A stretch of 64,000 nucleotides of DNA from Microbacterium sp. CGR2. GTDB taxonomy: Bacteria; Actinomycetota; Actinomycetes; Actinomycetales; Microbacteriaceae. Numbering within the stretch: the first letter of the stretch is position 1; the number at the start of each line of letters is the position of its first letter. The DNA is taken from contig NZ_RBHX01000001.1 of NCBI RefSeq assembly GCF_003626735.1, forward strand, positions 1,984,001 to 2,048,000. Direction: 5' to 3'. Below are positions 5,270-14,039 of the stretch, one piece after another. The translations under genes were made by a program, and so were the position numbers. Under the pieces are notes generated by a model that saw only the letters and a program-made list of their open reading frames with translations, searched no databases and was not told the origin of the DNA.

Positions 5270-7021
<1,752 letters not shown>

Positions 7022-7539: not shown

Positions 7540-8583
7540 ATGCCTGAGGCAACCCCTCGCGTTCTCGTCGTCGACGACGACCCTGATGTCGCGCTGCTGG
7601 TGAAGACGGTCCTCGAACGACGGGCCGGCTGCATCGTCGACGTCGCCGAAGACGGCAACGCCGCGATCGCCCGCATGGCGGAAGTGCGCCCCGACGTCGT
7701 CGTCACCGATATCGAGATGCCCGGGCTCAGCGGCCTCGAGCTGCTTGCCGAGCTGCGGCGCACCGCGCCGAACATCCCGGTGATCGTCATGACGGCCCAC
7801 GTCTCTGTCGATTACGCCGTCTCGGCGCTGCGCGCACAGGCCGACGAGTTCCTCACCAAACCGCTCGACAACGCGAAACTGGTCGAGGCCGTCACGCGGC
7901 TCGCCGAAGAAGGGCGTCGCCGTCGCGAAGCGGCGCGCCCGAAGGAGAGCGTCTTGGCGATCGGCGCGCACCCGGACGACGTCGAGATCGGCGTCGGAGG
8001 GCTTCTCGCCGCCCATGCCCACGCCGAGGACGAGATCACCATCCTCACGCTGTCGCGCGGAGCGCGCGGCGGCGATGCCGACAGCAGGCAGAGCGAATCG
8101 CTGGCGACGGCCGAGATGCTTGGAGCGCGACTGTTCGTGAAGGATCTGGTCGACACGGAGATCTCCGGCGGCGGCGCGACCGTCCGCCTCATCGAGGAAG
8201 TCGTGCAGGAGATCCAGCCGACCATCGTCTACACGCATTCCCACAACGACCGCCACCAGGACCACCGAGCCGTGAGCGAGGCCACCATCGTCGCGACGCG
8301 TCGGGTGGGGACCGTGGCCTGCTACCAGAGCCCGTCGTCGACGATCGACTTCCGCCCGACGCGCTTTGTGCGGATCGATCACTATCTCGACGACAAGCTC
8401 CGACTCCTGGAACGGTTCAGCACCCAGACCGGAACCCGCGACTACCTCTCGCCGGACTTCGTCACGGCGACGGCTCGGTACTGGTCCCGGTTCGGCGGCG
8501 GTCAGGCGGTCGAACCCCTGGAAGTGGTGCGCGAGACGGCAGAGTTCGTCGGCGCGCACGAACTCACACGACGGGAGAGCTGA
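7540..8583 (+). CDS. Response regulator receiver domain fused to PIG-L (LmbE-like) deacetylase
   Basis: Residues 1-120 form a complete receiver domain: acidic D12-D14, phospho-acceptor D57 in VVTDIEMPG, T85 and K107. Residues 135-330 form a PIG-L type zinc amide hydrolase with AHPDD (143-147) and HNDRHQDH (235-242) supplying the metal ligands. Known family members remove acetyl groups from N-acetylglucosamine-bearing substrates (GPI precursors, mycothiol precursor, teicoplanin). Fusing the enzyme to a receiver suggests that its activity, not transcription, is switched by phosphorylation. No signal peptide, so it acts in the cytoplasm. It is the first gene of a seven-gene coupled operon, has AAGGAAG upstream of the ATG, and its stop overlaps the next start by 1 bp. 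The substrate is unknown. Confidence 0.9.
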   Translation: MPEATPRVLVVDDDPDVALLVKTVLERRAGCIVDVAEDGNAAIARMAEVRPDVVVTDIEMPGLSGLELLAELRRTAPNIPVIVMTAHVSVDYAVSALRAQADEFLTKPLDNAKLVEAVTRLAEEGRRRREAARPKESVLAIGAHPDDVEIGVGGLLAAHAHAEDEITILTLSRGARGGDADSRQSESLATAEMLGARLFVKDLVDTEISGGGATVRLIEEVVQEIQPTIVYTHSHNDRHQDHRAVSEATIVATRRVGTVACYQSPSSTIDFRPTRFVRIDHYLDDKLRLLERFSTQTGTRDYLSPDFVTATARYWSRFGGGQAVEPLEVVRETAEFVGAHELTRRES

Positions 8584-9572
8584 TGATGACGCGCGTTCTG
8601 GTTACCGGTGCCGGCGGACCCGCAGGTGTGGCCGTGATCCGCTCACTGCTGAACCGGGCGGACCTGACCGTGTTCGCCGCCGACATGGACGGCTGGGCCA
8701 GCGGCATCTATCTCGTTCCTCCGTCGCAGCGGCGACTCGTGCCTCCCGGGCGGGATACGGACTTCGTTCCGGCGATCGCCCGGATGGTGGTGGAGGACGA
8801 CCTCGATCTCGTCATCTCGACGGTCGACGTCGAACTCATCGCCCTCGCCGATCGTCGAGACGAGCTCGCGCCGGCCGTGCTGGCGGCGCCGCCGTCAGAG
8901 ACTCTGCACACGGCGCTCGACAAGCTCGCGCTCGCCCAACGATGCGCTCCCACGGGCCGCACCCCGCGGACGGTCCTGGCCGGACCCGCCGCGCTCGACA
9001 TCGAGTGGGAGTTCCCGGCCTTCGCCAAGCCGCGCCAGGGGGCCGGCAGCCGCGGCATCCGCCTGGTTCCCGACCGCGCAGCTCTCGAAGCGCTGCCCAC
9101 CGACGAAGACCTCATCGTGCAGGACTACCTGCCCGGCGAGGAGTATTCGGTCGACGTCATCGCCGATGCCGACGGGAACGTCGTCGCCGCCGTCCCGCGC
9201 ACACGCGCCCGCGTCGATTCCGGCGTCGCGATCGCCGGACGCACCGTGCGCGACCCCGAACTCGAAGAGACCGCGGCGGCCATCGCCCGGGCGATCGGCC
9301 TGGTCGGCGTGGCGAACGTGCAGTTGCGCCGCGACCGAGCGGGACGAGCAGTGCTGCTCGAAGTCAATCCGCGCTTCCCCGGTGCGCTTCCCCTGACGAT
9401 CGCCGCAGGCGTGGACATCCCGTCTCTGGTCGCCGACCTGTTCCTCGGTCGCGAGATCCCGGCTCGGATCCCCTTCCGTGAGGTCGCGTCCGTGCGGTTC
9501 CTGGAGGACGTGATCGTCGAGGTCGACGAGCTGCTCGTCTCGGAACACGCCGGACATCAGGAGGAGCAGTGA
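8583..9572 (+). CDS. ATP-grasp domain protein (carbamoyl-phosphate-synthase-like ligase)
   Basis: A 329-residue single-domain ATP-grasp enzyme. The Rossmann-like pre-ATP-grasp segment starts VLVTGAGGPAG (5-15); the ATP-binding part includes FAKPRQGAGSRGI and VQDYLPGEEYSVDV; the metal-binding end is LLEVNPRFPGALPL. Such enzymes activate a carboxylate as acyl phosphate and join it to an amine, or carboxylate one. The resemblance is to the stand-alone CarB-like group rather than true carbamoyl phosphate synthase. The start overlaps the preceding deacetylase by 1 bp and the end overlaps the PHP gene by 4 bp, so it works in the same pathway. A tempting inference is that the amine freed by the PIG-L enzyme is its acceptor. 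Substrate unknown. Confidence 0.85.
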   Translation: MMTRVLVTGAGGPAGVAVIRSLLNRADLTVFAADMDGWASGIYLVPPSQRRLVPPGRDTDFVPAIARMVVEDDLDLVISTVDVELIALADRRDELAPAVLAAPPSETLHTALDKLALAQRCAPTGRTPRTVLAGPAALDIEWEFPAFAKPRQGAGSRGIRLVPDRAALEALPTDEDLIVQDYLPGEEYSVDVIADADGNVVAAVPRTRARVDSGVAIAGRTVRDPELEETAAAIARAIGLVGVANVQLRRDRAGRAVLLEVNPRFPGALPLTIAAGVDIPSLVADLFLGREIPARIPFREVASVRFLEDVIVEVDELLVSEHAGHQEEQ

Positions 9573-10288
9573 GCCATCCGGCTCTGCGGGGCGACCACCA
9601 TGTGCACTCGTCCTTCTCGGACGATGCCGTCTCGACTCTCGCCGAGAACGTCGCGGCCGCCGCGGGCGTCGGTCTGCACACGGTGCGCCTGGTGGACCAC
9701 GTCCGCGGGAGCACCACCTGGGTCCCGGAGTATCTCGCTGCCGTGCGCGGACTGGTCGTGCCCGACGGGCTCCGGGTGCTCACCGGCGTCGAAGCGAAGA
9801 TCCTCGATGCATCCGGTGAGTTGGACATCCCCCCGCTTCCCGAGGGCATCGACCGCATCCTCATCGCCGACCATCAGTTCCCCGCTGCGGACGGGCCCCT
9901 CGGCCCGACGGCCGTGCGCGGACGCATCGCCGACGGCTGGGCAGCCGATGACGTCCTCGACATGCTGGTCTCCGCGCTGATCGCCTCGATGCGTCGGCAC
10001 CCGGGGAATCAGCTCGCGCACTGCTTCTCCATCCTGCCGAAGATCGGTCTGTCGGAGGACGCTCTCGGGGATCAACGCATCGACGCCTGGGCGCGTGCGG
10101 CAGCAGAGACCGACACGCTCGTCGAGGTGAACGAGAAATGGGGCTGCCCGGATCTCGGGGCGCTCGCCGCTCTGCGCAGAGCCGGAGCCGAGATCGTCGC
10201 GTCGACCGACAGCCATGTGGCGTCCGACGTCGGGCGGTACAGCCGGGTGACCGCGCTGCTGGCCGCCGAAGAGGCCGCCCATGGCTGA
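9569..10288 (+). CDS. PHP domain phosphoesterase
   Basis: A 239-residue PHP-superfamily metal-dependent hydrolase related to histidinol phosphatase. Metal-binding motifs are DHHVHSSFSDD (H11, H13), LVDH, ADHQF, AHCFS, EVNEKW and STDSH near the C-terminus. It presumably removes a phosphate from a small organic molecule made in this pathway. The start is GTG at 9569 with GAGGAG just upstream, overlapping the ATP-grasp stop by 4 bp (GTGA). It runs 8 bp into the glycosyltransferase gene. It does not look like a histidine-biosynthesis gene: no other his gene is near and all neighbours are glycan or signalling genes. Confidence 0.85.
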   Translation: MSHPALRGDHHVHSSFSDDAVSTLAENVAAAAGVGLHTVRLVDHVRGSTTWVPEYLAAVRGLVVPDGLRVLTGVEAKILDASGELDIPPLPEGIDRILIADHQFPAADGPLGPTAVRGRIADGWAADDVLDMLVSALIASMRRHPGNQLAHCFSILPKIGLSEDALGDQRIDAWARAAAETDTLVEVNEKWGCPDLGALAALRRAGAEIVASTDSHVASDVGRYSRVTALLAAEEAAHG

Positions 10289-11768
10289 CCTCACCTGGCT
10301 GGAGACCGTGCTGGTCGTCTTCCTGCTCCTGTGCGTCTTCATCGGGACCCTGCCCGTCATCAACACCGCGTGGCAGTTCCTCATGCTGCCTCTCCACGCT
10401 TTCCGCAATCACTACGCGGAGGCGGCGCCCTATCACCCGAACGTCGCCGTCATCATCCCCGCCTGGAACGAAGGGCTCGTCATCGGTGCCGCGATCGAGC
10501 GGCTGCTGCAGCTCGAGTACCCGGTCGACCGGCTCCGAGTGTTCGTCGTGGACGACGCCTCGACCGATGACACCCCGGCGGTCGTCCTGTCGAAGGCGGC
10601 TGCACACCCCGGCCGGGTCGTGCACCTCCGGCGGGACAAGGGCGGCGAGGGCAAGGCCCACACCCTCAACCATGGACTCGACGTGGTGCTCGCGGATGCG
10701 TGGACGGAGGCGGTGCTCATCATGGACGCCGATGTCATCTTCGCCCGGGATTCGCTGCGCAAGCTCAGCCGTCACCTCGCCGATGAGAAGGTCGGCGCCG
10801 TCACCGCGTACATCCCCGAAGCCAGCCGGGACCGCAACTACCTCACGCGGTTCATCGCCATCGAGTACGTGATCGGTCAGCTCTCCGCCCGTCGAACGCA
10901 GAACGTCGGGGGAGCGATCGCCTGCCTCGCCGGCGGGGCACAGCTGCATTCGCGCGCGAACCTCGAGGCGATCGGCGGACGCATTCCCACCGGCACCCTG
11001 GCCGAAGACACGATGACCACGTTCGAGGGGCAGCTCAAGGGGCGGCGGATGGTCTTCGAGCCGCACGCGGTCGTCGGCGCCGAAGAACCGCGCACGATCG
11101 ACAGCCTCTGGAAGCAGCGGCTGCGTTGGGCGCGCGGCAACGTGCAGTTGACCTCGATCTACCGGCGACTCTGGTTCCGCCCGAGTCGCACGCACAATCT
11201 GGGCAGCGTGTCGTTCGGGCTGGCGTGGTTCACGATCCTGCTTCTTCCTGTCTTCATGGTGCTCGCCTCCGCAGCCATGCTCACCCTTCTCCTCCTGCAC
11301 AGCGACATCGCCGAGTTCGTCTTCCGCTTCATGTGGATCTTCGCGGCGTGCGTGTATCTCTACTCGATGATCTACGCCGTGCAGCTGGACCCTCGCATCG
11401 GGCGGCAGTCCTGGCGGGAAGCACTCATGTTCCCGGGGCTCGGCGCGCTGATCCTGATGGCCATCGCCCTGTTCCCGTGGATCTTCGAGCAGGGCCTGGC
11501 GCAACTCGGGCTCGCGGTGACAGACGACACACGGTTCCTGTGGGCTGTGCTCTTCTACAGCTGGGGACCGATCTCGTTGCTCGGAATCTGGCTCGCGCGG
11601 GCCATCGAATCGCTTCCCGGCGGGCGTTTCTTCGCCGGACTGCTGCTCTACATCTGCGGCTTCGGCTCGCTGCTGTGCGCCATCACGGTTGATTCCTACA
11701 TCAAGGAGTGGCGCCGAGCCGACGCCTCTTGGATCAAGACCGAGAAGATCGGACGGGTCGACTCATGA
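10281..11768 (+). CDS. Membrane-embedded processive family 2 glycosyltransferase
   Basis: A 495-residue GT2 of the cellulose/chitin/poly-GlcNAc synthase type. One N-terminal membrane helix (about 8-30) precedes a cytoplasmic GT-A domain with DDAS (D91, D92), the nucleotide-metal DAD motif (D149, D151), AED (E242, D243) and QRLRW (279-283), the full D,D,D,QxxRW set of processive synthases. About five further helices follow (about 305-480). Such enzymes polymerise a sugar from UDP-sugar and push the chain through the membrane. No PilZ domain is present, so cyclic-di-GMP control of the BcsA type is not expected; control is more likely through the receiver proteins of the operon. The polymer is not identifiable, but pairing with a GlcNAc-type deacetylase favours an aminosugar glycan. 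Confidence 0.88.
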   Translation: MADLTWLETVLVVFLLLCVFIGTLPVINTAWQFLMLPLHAFRNHYAEAAPYHPNVAVIIPAWNEGLVIGAAIERLLQLEYPVDRLRVFVVDDASTDDTPAVVLSKAAAHPGRVVHLRRDKGGEGKAHTLNHGLDVVLADAWTEAVLIMDADVIFARDSLRKLSRHLADEKVGAVTAYIPEASRDRNYLTRFIAIEYVIGQLSARRTQNVGGAIACLAGGAQLHSRANLEAIGGRIPTGTLAEDTMTTFEGQLKGRRMVFEPHAVVGAEEPRTIDSLWKQRLRWARGNVQLTSIYRRLWFRPSRTHNLGSVSFGLAWFTILLLPVFMVLASAAMLTLLLLHSDIAEFVFRFMWIFAACVYLYSMIYAVQLDPRIGRQSWREALMFPGLGALILMAIALFPWIFEQGLAQLGLAVTDDTRFLWAVLFYSWGPISLLGIWLARAIESLPGGRFFAGLLLYICGFGSLLCAITVDSYIKEWRRADASWIKTEKIGRVDS

Positions 11769-11908
11769 CTCAGGCACCATCGGAGAAAGCCGAGGTCGAC
11801 GAGATCGCCACGGATGCGCGGCGCGAGCGGCGTCTGATCCCGCAGGCGCTGTTGTCGCTGGCCGTGGTCGTCGTGGTCGTCGTCGTGAGAGAGCTTCTCC
11901 TCCGATGA
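11765..11908 (+). CDS. 47-residue single-span membrane protein
   Basis: Starts with an ATG overlapping the glycosyltransferase stop by 4 bp and ends overlapping the receiver gene by 4 bp, which is strong evidence that this tiny frame is a gene. It has a charged N-terminal half (SEKAEVDEIATDARRERR) followed by a hydrophobic segment with an unbroken run of eight valines and a short basic tail (RELLLR). This suggests a tail-anchored or single-span protein, likely an accessory subunit of the neighbouring synthase or kinase. No family is recognised. Confidence 0.7.
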   Translation: MTQAPSEKAEVDEIATDARRERRLIPQALLSLAVVVVVVVVRELLLR

Positions 11909-12252
11909 CCGGTCGGCCACTGGCCCTCGTCGTCGAGGATGCGGCAGACCAGGCGGCGCTGCTGCGTCGCTATCTGGAACGCGAGGGTTTCGACGTGTTC
12001 GTCGCCGTCGACGCGGAATCCGCGATCGCCGCCTTCCCCGAGATCGATCCCGTCGTCGCCGTCCTCGACCTCCTTCTGCCGGGGATCTCGGGTCAGGAAT
12101 GCGCACGCCTGGTGCAGAAGCGATTCCCCGGGTGCTTCCTCATCATCAGCTCGGTCTTCGACGCTGCGGACTACCCGCCCGCGGATGCCGCGTTGCCGAA
12201 GCCCATCATCGGTGCGCACCTGCACGCCATCATCGCGGGGGTGCCGCGGTGA
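11905..12252 (+). CDS. Stand-alone response regulator receiver protein
   Basis: A 115-residue CheY-like receiver with nothing attached. Acidic pocket VVEDAADQ, phospho-acceptor aspartate in VAVLDLLLPGISG, a serine in the LIISS strand and a lysine-proline pair in LPKPI are all present. The ATG at 11905 overlaps the upstream small gene by 4 bp, and the stop overlaps the kinase GTG by 4 bp. Receivers without an output domain usually relay phosphate or bind a partner; here the partner could be the kinase, the glycosyltransferase or the REC-PIG-L enzyme. No DNA-binding domain is encoded in this operon. Confidence 0.88.
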   Translation: MTGRPLALVVEDAADQAALLRRYLEREGFDVFVAVDAESAIAAFPEIDPVVAVLDLLLPGISGQECARLVQKRFPGCFLIISSVFDAADYPPADAALPKPIIGAHLHAIIAGVPR

Positions 12253-14039
12253 GGGCGACTCCGCTCGATCGTGCAGGGAGCCGGTGGTACCGGACCTTCG
12301 ACAACCCGAGCCCGTTGGTCAAGCAGTCTCCCACGGTCATCGCCACCATCCTCGCCGCACTGCTGACGTGGTGGAATGCGGATCTGCCTTTCACTCATTT
12401 CGGTGCCGCTGCCGCGGGGATCGTCATCGTGCTGCTCGCGACCGTCCAGGCCGCAGTGTTGAGCGCTCGGCACGTGTACGACGGATGGGTCGTACTCCTC
12501 ATCCCGATGATCGACATCGTGGGGCTCGGTCTGTTCCGCGCAGGAACGGGCGGAGCGGCCTCGCTCTTCTCCTCTTTCGTGCTGCTGCCCGCCGTGTGGA
12601 TCGCGGCGGCTCCGGGCATCCGCTACGTCTTCGTCGTGGGCGGGTTGACCTCTCTCGCGCTGCTCATGCCGTATTTCGCGGATCCTCCCGGCAACTGGGT
12701 CGCCTGGCTGCGCGGTGTCGTCGCCCCCCTCGTGTTCGCCGCCGTCGCCGCGGTCGTCAACGAGCTGTCCCGCCAGCAGCGCGAGCGGGCGGAACAGGCG
12801 GAGGAACTCGTGGGGGAGCGCACGGCCGCACTCGCCGACAACGTCAAGATGATCGTGCAACTGCGCGAGAAAGAGCATCAGTACCGGTCTCTCGTGGAGT
12901 CCTACGAGGGTCTGTGGTCGTCGATCACGGCCCAGGCGGTCATCGCGACCAACCGGCACGGCGTGATCACGGCATGGAACCCCGGGGCGGAGCGGCTGCT
13001 GGGCCTCTCCTCCGCAGAGGCGCTGAACGACGTGCGCGTCGACCGGTTCTTCTCCGAGTCCTCGTTGGTCGCTCTGGCGAGCGACTGCACCCAGGAGCAG
13101 CTCAGCGCGCTCGACGCGGACCTGCCGCCGGGGCTGCGGGCCCTCTTCGCCGGCGCGGACGACGAGGAGACCGCGGAGAGCGATGTCGATGTGGTGACGG
13201 CTTCCGGCACCCCCGTGCCGTCCCGGGTGACGGTGAATCCGTATCGAGACGGTTCCGGTACCCAGCAGGGATACCTGCTGGTGGTGACCGACGAGAGCAA
13301 GGCGGTCGAGGTCGCGCGGATGAAGGACGAGTTCGTCGGGATGATCTCCCATGAGCTGCGGACCCCGCTGAGTGCCATCATCGGCTTCCTCGACCTGCTG
13401 CAGAACGACCCGGCGCAGCCGCTCACCGACGAGCAGCAGGAGTTCGTGGGAATCATCGAGCGCAACGCGCAGCGCCTGCTCACCCTCGTCGGCGACCTGC
13501 TCTTCACCGCGCAGGTCGAATCCGGTCGCTTTCCGCTGGATCGCGCGGAGGCCGATGTGGCCGAACTCGTCCGTGCCGCCGTCGCCTCTTCGGGGCCGCA
13601 TGCGCAGCGCGGGGGCATCGAGATATCGGCCGAGGTCGACGCCGACTCCATCCGGCTCCTCCTCGACGCGAACCGTATCGGCCAGGCCCTCGACAACCTG
13701 CTGTCGAACGCGATCAAGTTCACCCCGCGCGGGGGGCGTGTCACCGCTCGCGCCCGGATCGTCGACGGCGGGGTGGAGCTCTCGGTGCGCGACACGGGCG
13801 TCGGCATCCCCGAAGACGAGCAGGGGATGCTGTTCACCCGTTTCTTCCGGGCCTCCACGGCGACCAGGAACGCGGTTCCCGGCGTGGGGCTGGGCCTCAC
13901 CATCACCCGTGCGATCGTCCTCGCCCACGGCGGCACGATGGATGTGACCAGCAAGGAAGGCGTGGGCACCGAGTTCCGCTTCGTGCTGCCGTCTGCGCCG
14001 AAGACCGAGACGCTGAGGACGCTGAGCCGCGCGGACTGA
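12249..14039 (+). CDS. Membrane sensor histidine kinase with PAS domain
   Basis: A 596-residue kinase starting at GTG 12249, overlapping the receiver stop (GTGA). About five to six membrane helices fill residues 25-170 with almost no extracellular domain. A short coiled coil follows (QQRERAEQAEELVGERTA), then a PAS domain (about 215-340, starting near AQAVIATNRHGVITAWN), HisKA with the phospho-accepting H368 in ISHELRTPLSA, and a HATPase with DNLLSNAIKFTP, DTGVGIPEDE and GVGLGLTI. It senses something in or at the membrane, or a ligand or redox cue via PAS. It is the last gene of the operon and presumably phosphorylates the two receiver domains encoded upstream. Confidence 0.92.
   Translation: MRATPLDRAGSRWYRTFDNPSPLVKQSPTVIATILAALLTWWNADLPFTHFGAAAAGIVIVLLATVQAAVLSARHVYDGWVVLLIPMIDIVGLGLFRAGTGGAASLFSSFVLLPAVWIAAAPGIRYVFVVGGLTSLALLMPYFADPPGNWVAWLRGVVAPLVFAAVAAVVNELSRQQRERAEQAEELVGERTAALADNVKMIVQLREKEHQYRSLVESYEGLWSSITAQAVIATNRHGVITAWNPGAERLLGLSSAEALNDVRVDRFFSESSLVALASDCTQEQLSALDADLPPGLRALFAGADDEETAESDVDVVTASGTPVPSRVTVNPYRDGSGTQQGYLLVVTDESKAVEVARMKDEFVGMISHELRTPLSAIIGFLDLLQNDPAQPLTDEQQEFVGIIERNAQRLLTLVGDLLFTAQVESGRFPLDRAEADVAELVRAAVASSGPHAQRGGIEISAEVDADSIRLLLDANRIGQALDNLLSNAIKFTPRGGRVTARARIVDGGVELSVRDTGVGIPEDEQGMLFTRFFRASTATRNAVPGVGLGLTITRAIVLAHGGTMDVTSKEGVGTEFRFVLPSAPKTETLRTLSRAD

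Follow-up and report, generated by a model that had tools for sequence, protein, structure and literature searches.

Our analysis showed that seven overlapping genes on the forward strand of a Microbacterium sp. CGR2 contig form a conserved, kinase-linked synthase operon, which occupies positions 7540-14039 of the window (the whole 64,000-nucleotide stretch analysed, positions 1,984,001 to 2,048,000 of NZ_RBHX01000001.1). In order, the genes encode a response-regulator receiver (REC) fused to a PIG-L deacetylase (REC-PIG-L), an ATP-grasp ligase, a PHP-type phosphoesterase/phosphatase, a membrane glycosyltransferase of family 2 (GT2), a tiny membrane protein, a stand-alone receiver and a sensor histidine kinase. 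We infer that the operon specifies a synthase-dependent exopolysaccharide system in which phosphorylation would switch the cytosolic deacetylase, a reading to which we give a probability of roughly 60%. The gene set itself is a real, widespread and conserved module.

This is seen from its recurrence in other bacteria. Named genome contigs were scanned with a REC-PIG-L alignment and two peptide patterns, and gene calls within the resulting loci came from a simple script. This sample, which is not a census, gave at least 80 loci (L-numbers below; G-numbers denote genomes, G000 being the window's own, 3.97 Mb in size). Receiver and PIG-L lie in one gene in 40 of the 80 (L011-L049 and L082); the other 40 matches are confined to PIG-L, with a separate receiver match in L072. 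Because one of the scan patterns lies in the receiver and covers its conserved lysine, intact receivers are over-represented among these loci. Among the matches listed, 29 of the fusion loci are from Actinomycetota, including Microbacterium, Leucobacter, Leifsonia, Cellulomonas, Blastococcus, Serinicoccus, Occultella, Ilumatobacteraceae and Thermoleophilia, and 11 are proteobacterial or myxobacterial (Legionella, Marinicella, Burkholderiales, Rhodospirillales, other Alphaproteobacteria, Lysobacterales, Myxococcales and one proteobacterium without a finer label). The fusion is accompanied by an ATP-grasp gene in 35 of the 40 loci, by a GT2 gene in 30 and by a PHP gene in 26, with a His_Phos_1 phosphatase in six others (either phosphatase, 32/40). 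GT2 genes were counted above 180 bits, which excludes weaker ones in L053, L056 and L063 (150-153 bits) from the 31 considered below. Five of the ten GT2-less loci (L017, L029, L040, L045 and L082) have a strong GT2 outside the locus (718-781 bits), bringing the total to 35/40, and the genome search found no strong copy for L025, L028, L033, L034 and L041. Similarly, one of the five loci lacking an ATP-grasp gene (L040) has it elsewhere in its genome, and none was found in the genomes of L025, L028, L034 and L041. Counted by genome, 35 of 40 have ATP-grasp as well as GT2, four have neither, and the two disagree in a single 1.7 Mb assembly (L033).

Where both members of a pair are present, they are spaced by -30 to +60 bp in 31/35 cases for REC-PIG-L and ATP-grasp, 24/25 for ATP-grasp and PHP, and 19/23 for PHP and GT2. 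The pairwise distances of the REC-PIG-L, ATP-grasp and GT2 trees agree (r 0.92, 0.85 and 0.81 over 30 shared rows; 0 of 2000 permutations in a mirror-tree comparison), these correlations being uncorrected for shared species history. Among 396 Actinomycetota genomes, for which the best three to five candidates per genome were scored, full-length REC-PIG-L occurs in three (G000, G210 and G427), and the same three hold both the GT2 and an ATP-grasp match of at least 420 bits. The remaining matches in this set are two to PIG-L only (212-217 bits) and a fourth, weaker ATP-grasp match (243 bits) in G243, a genome that also holds one of the two. The module genes lie side by side in G210 and G427; G210 apparently is the genome of L049, and only G427 is new relative to the loci described above. 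Within the genus, the module occurs in 6 of 35 genomes examined, our own included. The module is thus rare but kept together. The original prediction had called for a neighbourhood survey, and the possibility that these genes are rarely found together is refuted by it. Two Microbacteriaceae loci, L025 (5777-9360) and L028 (7905-17390), hold REC-PIG-L alongside receivers and kinases, the latter four in number in L028, and, with no ATP-grasp or GT2 found in their genomes, use the fusion in a reduced or different way.

The REC-PIG-L gene (7540-8583, ATG start, 347 aa; Pfam Response_reg and PIG-L) encodes a protein with a receiver at residues 8-118, a match to PIG-L/LmbE zinc deacetylases at residues 139-252 and no hydrophobic stretch, and holds the only PIG-L found in its genome. 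PIG-L residues H144, D147 and H242 are present in 37/37 aligned rows, and the window's receiver keeps the phospho-acceptor signature (D12, D13, D57, T85 and K107). The kinase gene (12249-14039, GTG start, 596 aa; Pfam PAS, HisKA and HATPase_c) encodes five hydrophobic N-terminal stretches followed by the three domains, so that the operon contains both halves of a two-component pair, phosphotransfer between them being a prediction. This kinase is one of 11 HisKA matches in its genome. A window-like kinase (E <=1e-12 against that of the window; a weaker tblastn kinase-like match in L031 was scored as no kinase) accompanies the fusion in 26/40 loci, where about 0.06 per 20 kb would be expected from the HisKA density of our own genome, a density that may be exceeded in others. 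When receivers were scored on five residues as [DE][DE]D[TS]K, 32 of the 40 were intact and 8 broken. None of the 8 loci with a broken receiver has a detected kinase, compared with 6 of the 32 with an intact one (Fisher p 3.9e-5); the broken receivers come from Legionella (2), Alphaproteobacteria (4) and Occultella/Serinicoccus (2), three lineages in all, and the p value for this reason overstates the number of independent events. Receiver and kinase tend to be kept or lost together. The confinement of broken receivers to loci with no detected kinase supports the link between sensor and deacetylase proposed at the outset.

We would predict from this co-retention that the membrane kinase phosphorylates the receiver of REC-PIG-L, and probably also the stand-alone receiver (11905-12252, 115 aa; Pfam Response_reg), and that phosphorylation of the fused receiver switches the cytosolic sugar deacetylase on or off. 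A very unlikely alternative is that the receiver of REC-PIG-L serves docking or dimerisation alone, the kinase acting via the stand-alone receiver or elsewhere. It would account for the retention of Asp57 in 36 of the 37 aligned rows, even when other receiver residues are lost, and for the intact receivers in loci with no detected kinase, but it does not sit well with the fact that all eight broken receivers are in loci of that kind, nor with L022, L023, L024 and L026, which are among the loci with kinase and REC-PIG-L and have no stand-alone receiver between GT2 and kinase. In L044, the PIG-L gene carries two receivers. Two of the broken-receiver loci, L047 (14244-16492) and L048 (14376-16936), from Occultella and Serinicoccus, have the GT2 and tiny genes followed by two further proteins, one of 500-606 aa with a signal-like N-terminus (judged by eye) and one of 246-249 aa, the L047 copies being without a Pfam match; for the secreted-looking protein (c114), which has no Pfam match, the best solved sequence match has an E of 0.086. 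A myxococcal locus (L146, 1389-13224) has, close to its ATP-grasp and GT2 pair, a hybrid kinase that includes REC and Hpt domains, a second kinase and a REC-EAL protein, hinting at links to cyclic di-GMP (c-di-GMP) there.

The GT2 gene (10281-11768, 495 aa; Pfam Glyco_tranf_2_3) encodes a membrane protein with hydrophobic stretches (from hydropathy) that belongs by its motifs to the hyaluronan, cellulose and poly-N-acetylglucosamine (PNAG) synthase class, that is, to the processive synthases, its processivity being predicted. The DxD (D149-A-D151), ED (E242-D243) and QxxRW (Q279, R282-W283) motifs of this class are invariant in 27/27 aligned GT2 rows; a C-terminal WxKTxK tail is invariant too. 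The predicted fold of a GT2 relative resembles BcsA and hyaluronan synthase (HAS), with PcManGT as top structural match. From motifs and fold together, we would expect the GT2 to polymerise a nucleotide sugar in the cytosol and to push the growing chain through the membrane. HAS and NodC-type GT2 proteins share with it the overall fold, over about 370-380 residues at 12-16% identity, and QxxRW, and WxKTxK recalls the HAS gating-loop sequence WGTSGRK/R, as given in a passage of PMC11750622; in our protein it comes after the last hydrophobic stretch, which is not the HAS position. Because four hydrophobic stretches separate QxxRW from the tail, we did not accept WxKTxK as an in-place HAS gating loop, and it stays a resemblance.

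The following NCBIfam scores of the GT2 are below cut-off: 124.4 bits for PgaC/IcaA (cut-off 422.3), 82.6 for the mycofactocin glycosyltransferase MftF, the second-best match (cut-off 280), 81.6 for NodC, 68.7 for HpnB (379.25) and 51.3 for HpnI (310). It is conceivable, although improbable, that the product is instead a glycolipid or lipid-linked glycan, with GT2 adding one or a few sugars to a membrane lipid, PIG-L deacetylating it on the cytosolic side as in the synthesis of GPI or hopanoid glucosamine, and the ligase decorating it. The weak similarity to HpnI and HpnB and the PcManGT fold match speak for such a product; the scores for PgaC/IcaA and NodC are higher, both also far below cut-off, and a TPR/beta-barrel partner of the kind described below would be unexpected. 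In an actinomycete assembly, L027 (12996-16017), a tandem pair of GT2 genes follows PHP.

The exopolysaccharide reading also draws on the gene that follows the GT2 (11765-11908), which encodes a single-pass membrane protein of 47 aa with a charged segment, DARRERR, and then one hydrophobic helix (from hydropathy), and which, scanned inside a 66-aa open reading frame (ORF), has no Pfam or NCBIfam match. Of the 31 GT2 genes, 25 are followed by a tiny ORF of this make-up (charged segment, then a single hydrophobic helix at the C-terminus), in most cases through the same ATGA overlap, and in two Legionella loci the tiny protein is the C-terminal tail of the GT2 itself; a protein search with this tail gave five more proteins, the three that carry an organism name all being from Legionella. 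The four GT2 genes without a tiny ORF are the tandem copies of L027, the second of which is at the locus end, and those of L030 and L037. A profile made from actinobacterial copies only was run on 3,495 six-frame segments of the 11 proteobacterial and myxobacterial loci, where it ranked the post-GT2 ORF of L035 first (E 8e-8) and that of L031 second (6e-5); its third rank is the tail of an unrelated-looking 202-aa protein of L082, with no GT2 before it (E 0.033), and its weaker matches in L042 (0.08), L043 (0.49) and the fused tails (0.64 and 2.3) are not significant alone. In loci outside the training set, the profile matched L132 (E 8e-11) and L017 (E 2.5e-9), the latter operon keeping its tiny gene though its GT2 lies elsewhere. 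A tiny-like ORF follows the GT2 in L143 and L147, and none was found after those of L144, L145 and L146, L145 ending 83 bp past the GT2. Given how regularly its gene comes after that of the GT2, and its fusion to the GT2 in the two Legionella loci, the tiny protein is probably a synthase subunit. Its position, recurrence across phyla and natural fusion suggest a one-helix synthase accessory, as PgaD is for PgaC.

The remaining enzymes would act on the sugar. The ATP-grasp ligase (8583-9572, 329 aa, CPS-like; Pfam ATPgrasp_Ter, PF15632) has 2pn1 as best solved sequence match and retains eight residues, among them K114, K149, E187, Q247, E260, N262 and R264, in 29/29 rows. The PHP protein (9569-10288, GTG start, 239 aa; Pfam PHP) best matches YcdX (1m65), with D9, H11, H13, D18, H44, E75, H102, H151, D214 and H216 present in 22/22 rows. 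Conserved residues of these two proteins and of PIG-L are expected, from their families, to bind metal or ATP; family and PDB sequence searches indicated no substrate for ATP-grasp or PHP. By family chemistry, PIG-L would expose the amine of an amino sugar, ATP-grasp would join a carboxylate, for example an amino acid, to that amine, and the step would be completed or driven by the phosphatase, which is PHP here and His_Phos_1 in several proteobacteria. Six loci have His_Phos_1 in place of PHP, which suggests that a phosphate is removed at this step. A substrate of the GlcNAc type would be suggested by the PIG-L family only. A GlmS-like gene (SIS and GATase domains) about 6 kb from REC-PIG-L in L040 points weakly to amino sugars, weakly because GlmS is a common housekeeping gene.

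Deacetylases are paired with amide-forming enzymes in the mycothiol (MshB-MshC) and bacillithiol (BshB-BshC) pathways, and the PIG-L gene here also lies beside that of a putative amide-forming enzyme. We regard it as unlikely, though worth keeping in mind, that the operon makes a soluble amino-sugar metabolite, resembling a thiol or redox cofactor or an antibiotic. In this case GT2 would make the starting glycoside, PIG-L would deacetylate a GlcNAc conjugate, ATP-grasp would add an amino acid to it as the thiol pathways do, and the phosphatase would trim it. This deacetylase-then-ligase logic and the sub-cut-off scores of PIG-L to BshB1 (79.4 bits; cut-off 182.5, which speaks against a bacillithiol enzyme proper) and of GT2 to MftF would fit such a metabolite, but the membrane nature, QxxRW motif and synthase fold of the GT2 speak against it, as do the TPR/beta-barrel protein and BcsB of relatives. 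Our ligase moreover differs from those of the thiol pathways in being an ATP-grasp enzyme, and it is accompanied by a membrane synthase and a kinase. The search for MshC in our own genome gave one long match, of 260.1 bits (cut-off 485.1), which is probably the ordinary CysRS; a mycothiol role for the lone PIG-L was rejected, no MshC being above cut-off, and mycothiol itself is an unlikely product. The ATP-grasp passes the PF15632 cut-off, as would be expected of the Ter-associated ATP-grasp pathway; none of the nine proteins scanned, from the operon and its flanks, is a Ter protein.

The export machinery of relatives with an outer membrane argues for the exopolysaccharide reading. A TPR or TPR-barrel protein is encoded in 10 of the 11 proteobacterial and myxobacterial loci and in 0 of the 29 actinobacterial ones. 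The exception, L029, ends 0.6 kb after REC-PIG-L; a barrel match (57.5 bits) is present in L143, the contig of that genome on which its GT2 lies. Nine of the ten counted sequences served to train the barrel profile, and the 0/29 and the L143 match lie outside this training. The L040 copy runs off the locus end. A model of an alphaproteobacterial TPR-barrel protein comprises 11 helices and 16 strands (predicted local distance difference test score, pLDDT, 87); its best Foldseek match is BcsC (9b8a; E 3.4e-12, 9% identity, root-mean-square deviation 9.0, both halves aligned) and its third PelBC (9h80). The VIA-align rows for this model also include separate TPR proteins. The fold suggests that the TPR/beta-barrel protein carries the product out in outer-membrane bacteria. 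The appearance of an outer-membrane exporter only where an outer membrane exists supports an exported glycan and agrees with the surface polymer put forward in the original prediction. In L082, BcsB lies nearby on the other strand; adjoining the TPR-barrel gene, positions 5445-6191 encode a 249-aa protein without a Pfam match, whose ELDIEF motif resembles that of GH16 glycosidases.

Several observations weigh against this reading. The window operon has no outer-membrane exporter, secreted hydrolase or PilZ domain, and the polymer reading leans on relatives for that reason. For the barrel half of the model, VIA-align favours porins and FadL-type barrels, BcsC not being among the rows listed. 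PcManGT, the best fold match of the GT2, is named a mannosyltransferase rather than a polymer synthase, and MftF ranks second among its NCBIfam matches. PIG-L, ATP-grasp and PHP are without membrane stretches, and their product could be a small molecule rather than a polymer; four of the 40 genomes (L025, L028, L034 and L041) hold REC-PIG-L without ATP-grasp or GT2. On the side of control, the broken receivers are confined to three lineages, and six intact receivers are found in kinase-less loci, two of which end early.

Known synthase systems share only part of this layout. The PNAG systems (pgaABCD, icaADBC) have in Gram-negatives the TPR and barrel exporter PgaA, which is matched in our Gram-negative relatives. 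Their deacetylase PgaB is periplasmic, whereas the one here is a PIG-L protein fused to a receiver, without membrane stretch, and the window operon holds no PgaB/IcaB-type extracytoplasmic deacetylase. The operon also adds an ATP-grasp ligase and a phosphatase, and its tiny protein has only 47 aa and one helix; PgaD models are presumably present in the Pfam and NCBIfam libraries scanned. BcsABC shares the GT2 fold and motifs, the exporter-like model of the relatives, whose best match is BcsC, and the BcsB near L082, and differs in that our operon, with no PilZ or similar c-di-GMP receptor domain among its proteins, has two-component parts in place of c-di-GMP control. Cellulose synthesis is not known to need a deacetylase or ATP-grasp, nor HAS a partner protein. 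Part of a review of synthase-dependent exopolysaccharide systems (PMC8461298) describes c-di-GMP control and an extracytoplasmic deacetylation of PNAG, and the main text of a survey of exopolysaccharide operons (PMC7112194) is without PIG-L, ATP-grasp, Legionella or two-component systems. By title and start of abstract, none of the papers listed in searches of the open literature describes this gene set, subscription papers being outside this scope.

A more specific and tentative proposal, possible but on balance doubtful, is that the operon represents a new exopolysaccharide machine, in which a two-component switch acts on a sugar-tailoring enzyme, REC-PIG-L deacetylates and ATP-grasp aminoacylates an amino sugar, the sensor thereby sets the charge and chemistry of the polymer during its synthesis, and the synthase is made of two pieces, one of its membrane helices being supplied by the 47-residue protein that in Legionella forms a single chain with it. 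If true, a phosphorylation switch would act directly on a cytosolic sugar-tailoring enzyme, and Gram-positive actinobacteria would gain a defined synthase operon to test. The unannotated 47-residue gene becomes a testable synthase subunit, and the gene set can serve as a recognition signature in Cellulomonas, Microbacterium and proteobacterial genomes.

At the level of gene layout, the overlaps are, in order, 1, 4, 8, 4, 4 and 4 bp. Re-reading of the same-strand genes agrees with the earlier description of seven genes coupled by 1-8 bp overlaps, and the families then named from motifs have Pfam matches above cut-off for 6/7 products (all labels given here are above cut-off, the last three genes having been scanned inside longer ORFs that contain them). 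The fixed stoichiometry that had been read from the coupling is not entailed by gene overlap. The operon is flanked upstream by the IMP dehydrogenase gene guaB (recognised by eye) and a DUF2277 gene, and downstream by an ABC-F gene. A promoter scan found no promoter, which carries no weight either way. Among 26 same-genus ABC-F neighbourhoods, 5 have a kinase in the 1.5 kb flank and 21 do not; in 11 of the 21, guaB or DUF2277 is in place, and REC-PIG-L is absent from the 7 genomes searched out of these 11. Gain or loss of the seven genes as one block at the ABC-F site would fit, because guaB or DUF2277 replaces the kinase in 11/21 flanks and the 7 searched genomes lack REC-PIG-L. Against such a block event, different DNA and genes lie between the flanks in two genomes without the operon (L128 and L131), and one of the 21 kinase-less flanks (L106, in G453) carries the operon further off (L130). 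A defence system was also considered and rejected, the PADLOC matches, which cover receiver and kinase stretches, having an E of 2e-7 at best.

Beyond the fusion loci, a distant cluster (L050, L051, L052, L054, L058, L067, L076, L077, L083 and L085, from Geodermatophilus, Actinoplanes, Catenulispora and others) combines a receiver-less PIG-L with GT2 and ATP-grasp, except that no ATP-grasp was seen in L058, whose sequence stops shortly after GT2. Most of these loci also have a UDP-GlcNAc 2-epimerase and a HAD hydrolase, as judged from family tests on L067, and L054 has a weak exosortase match just below cut-off.

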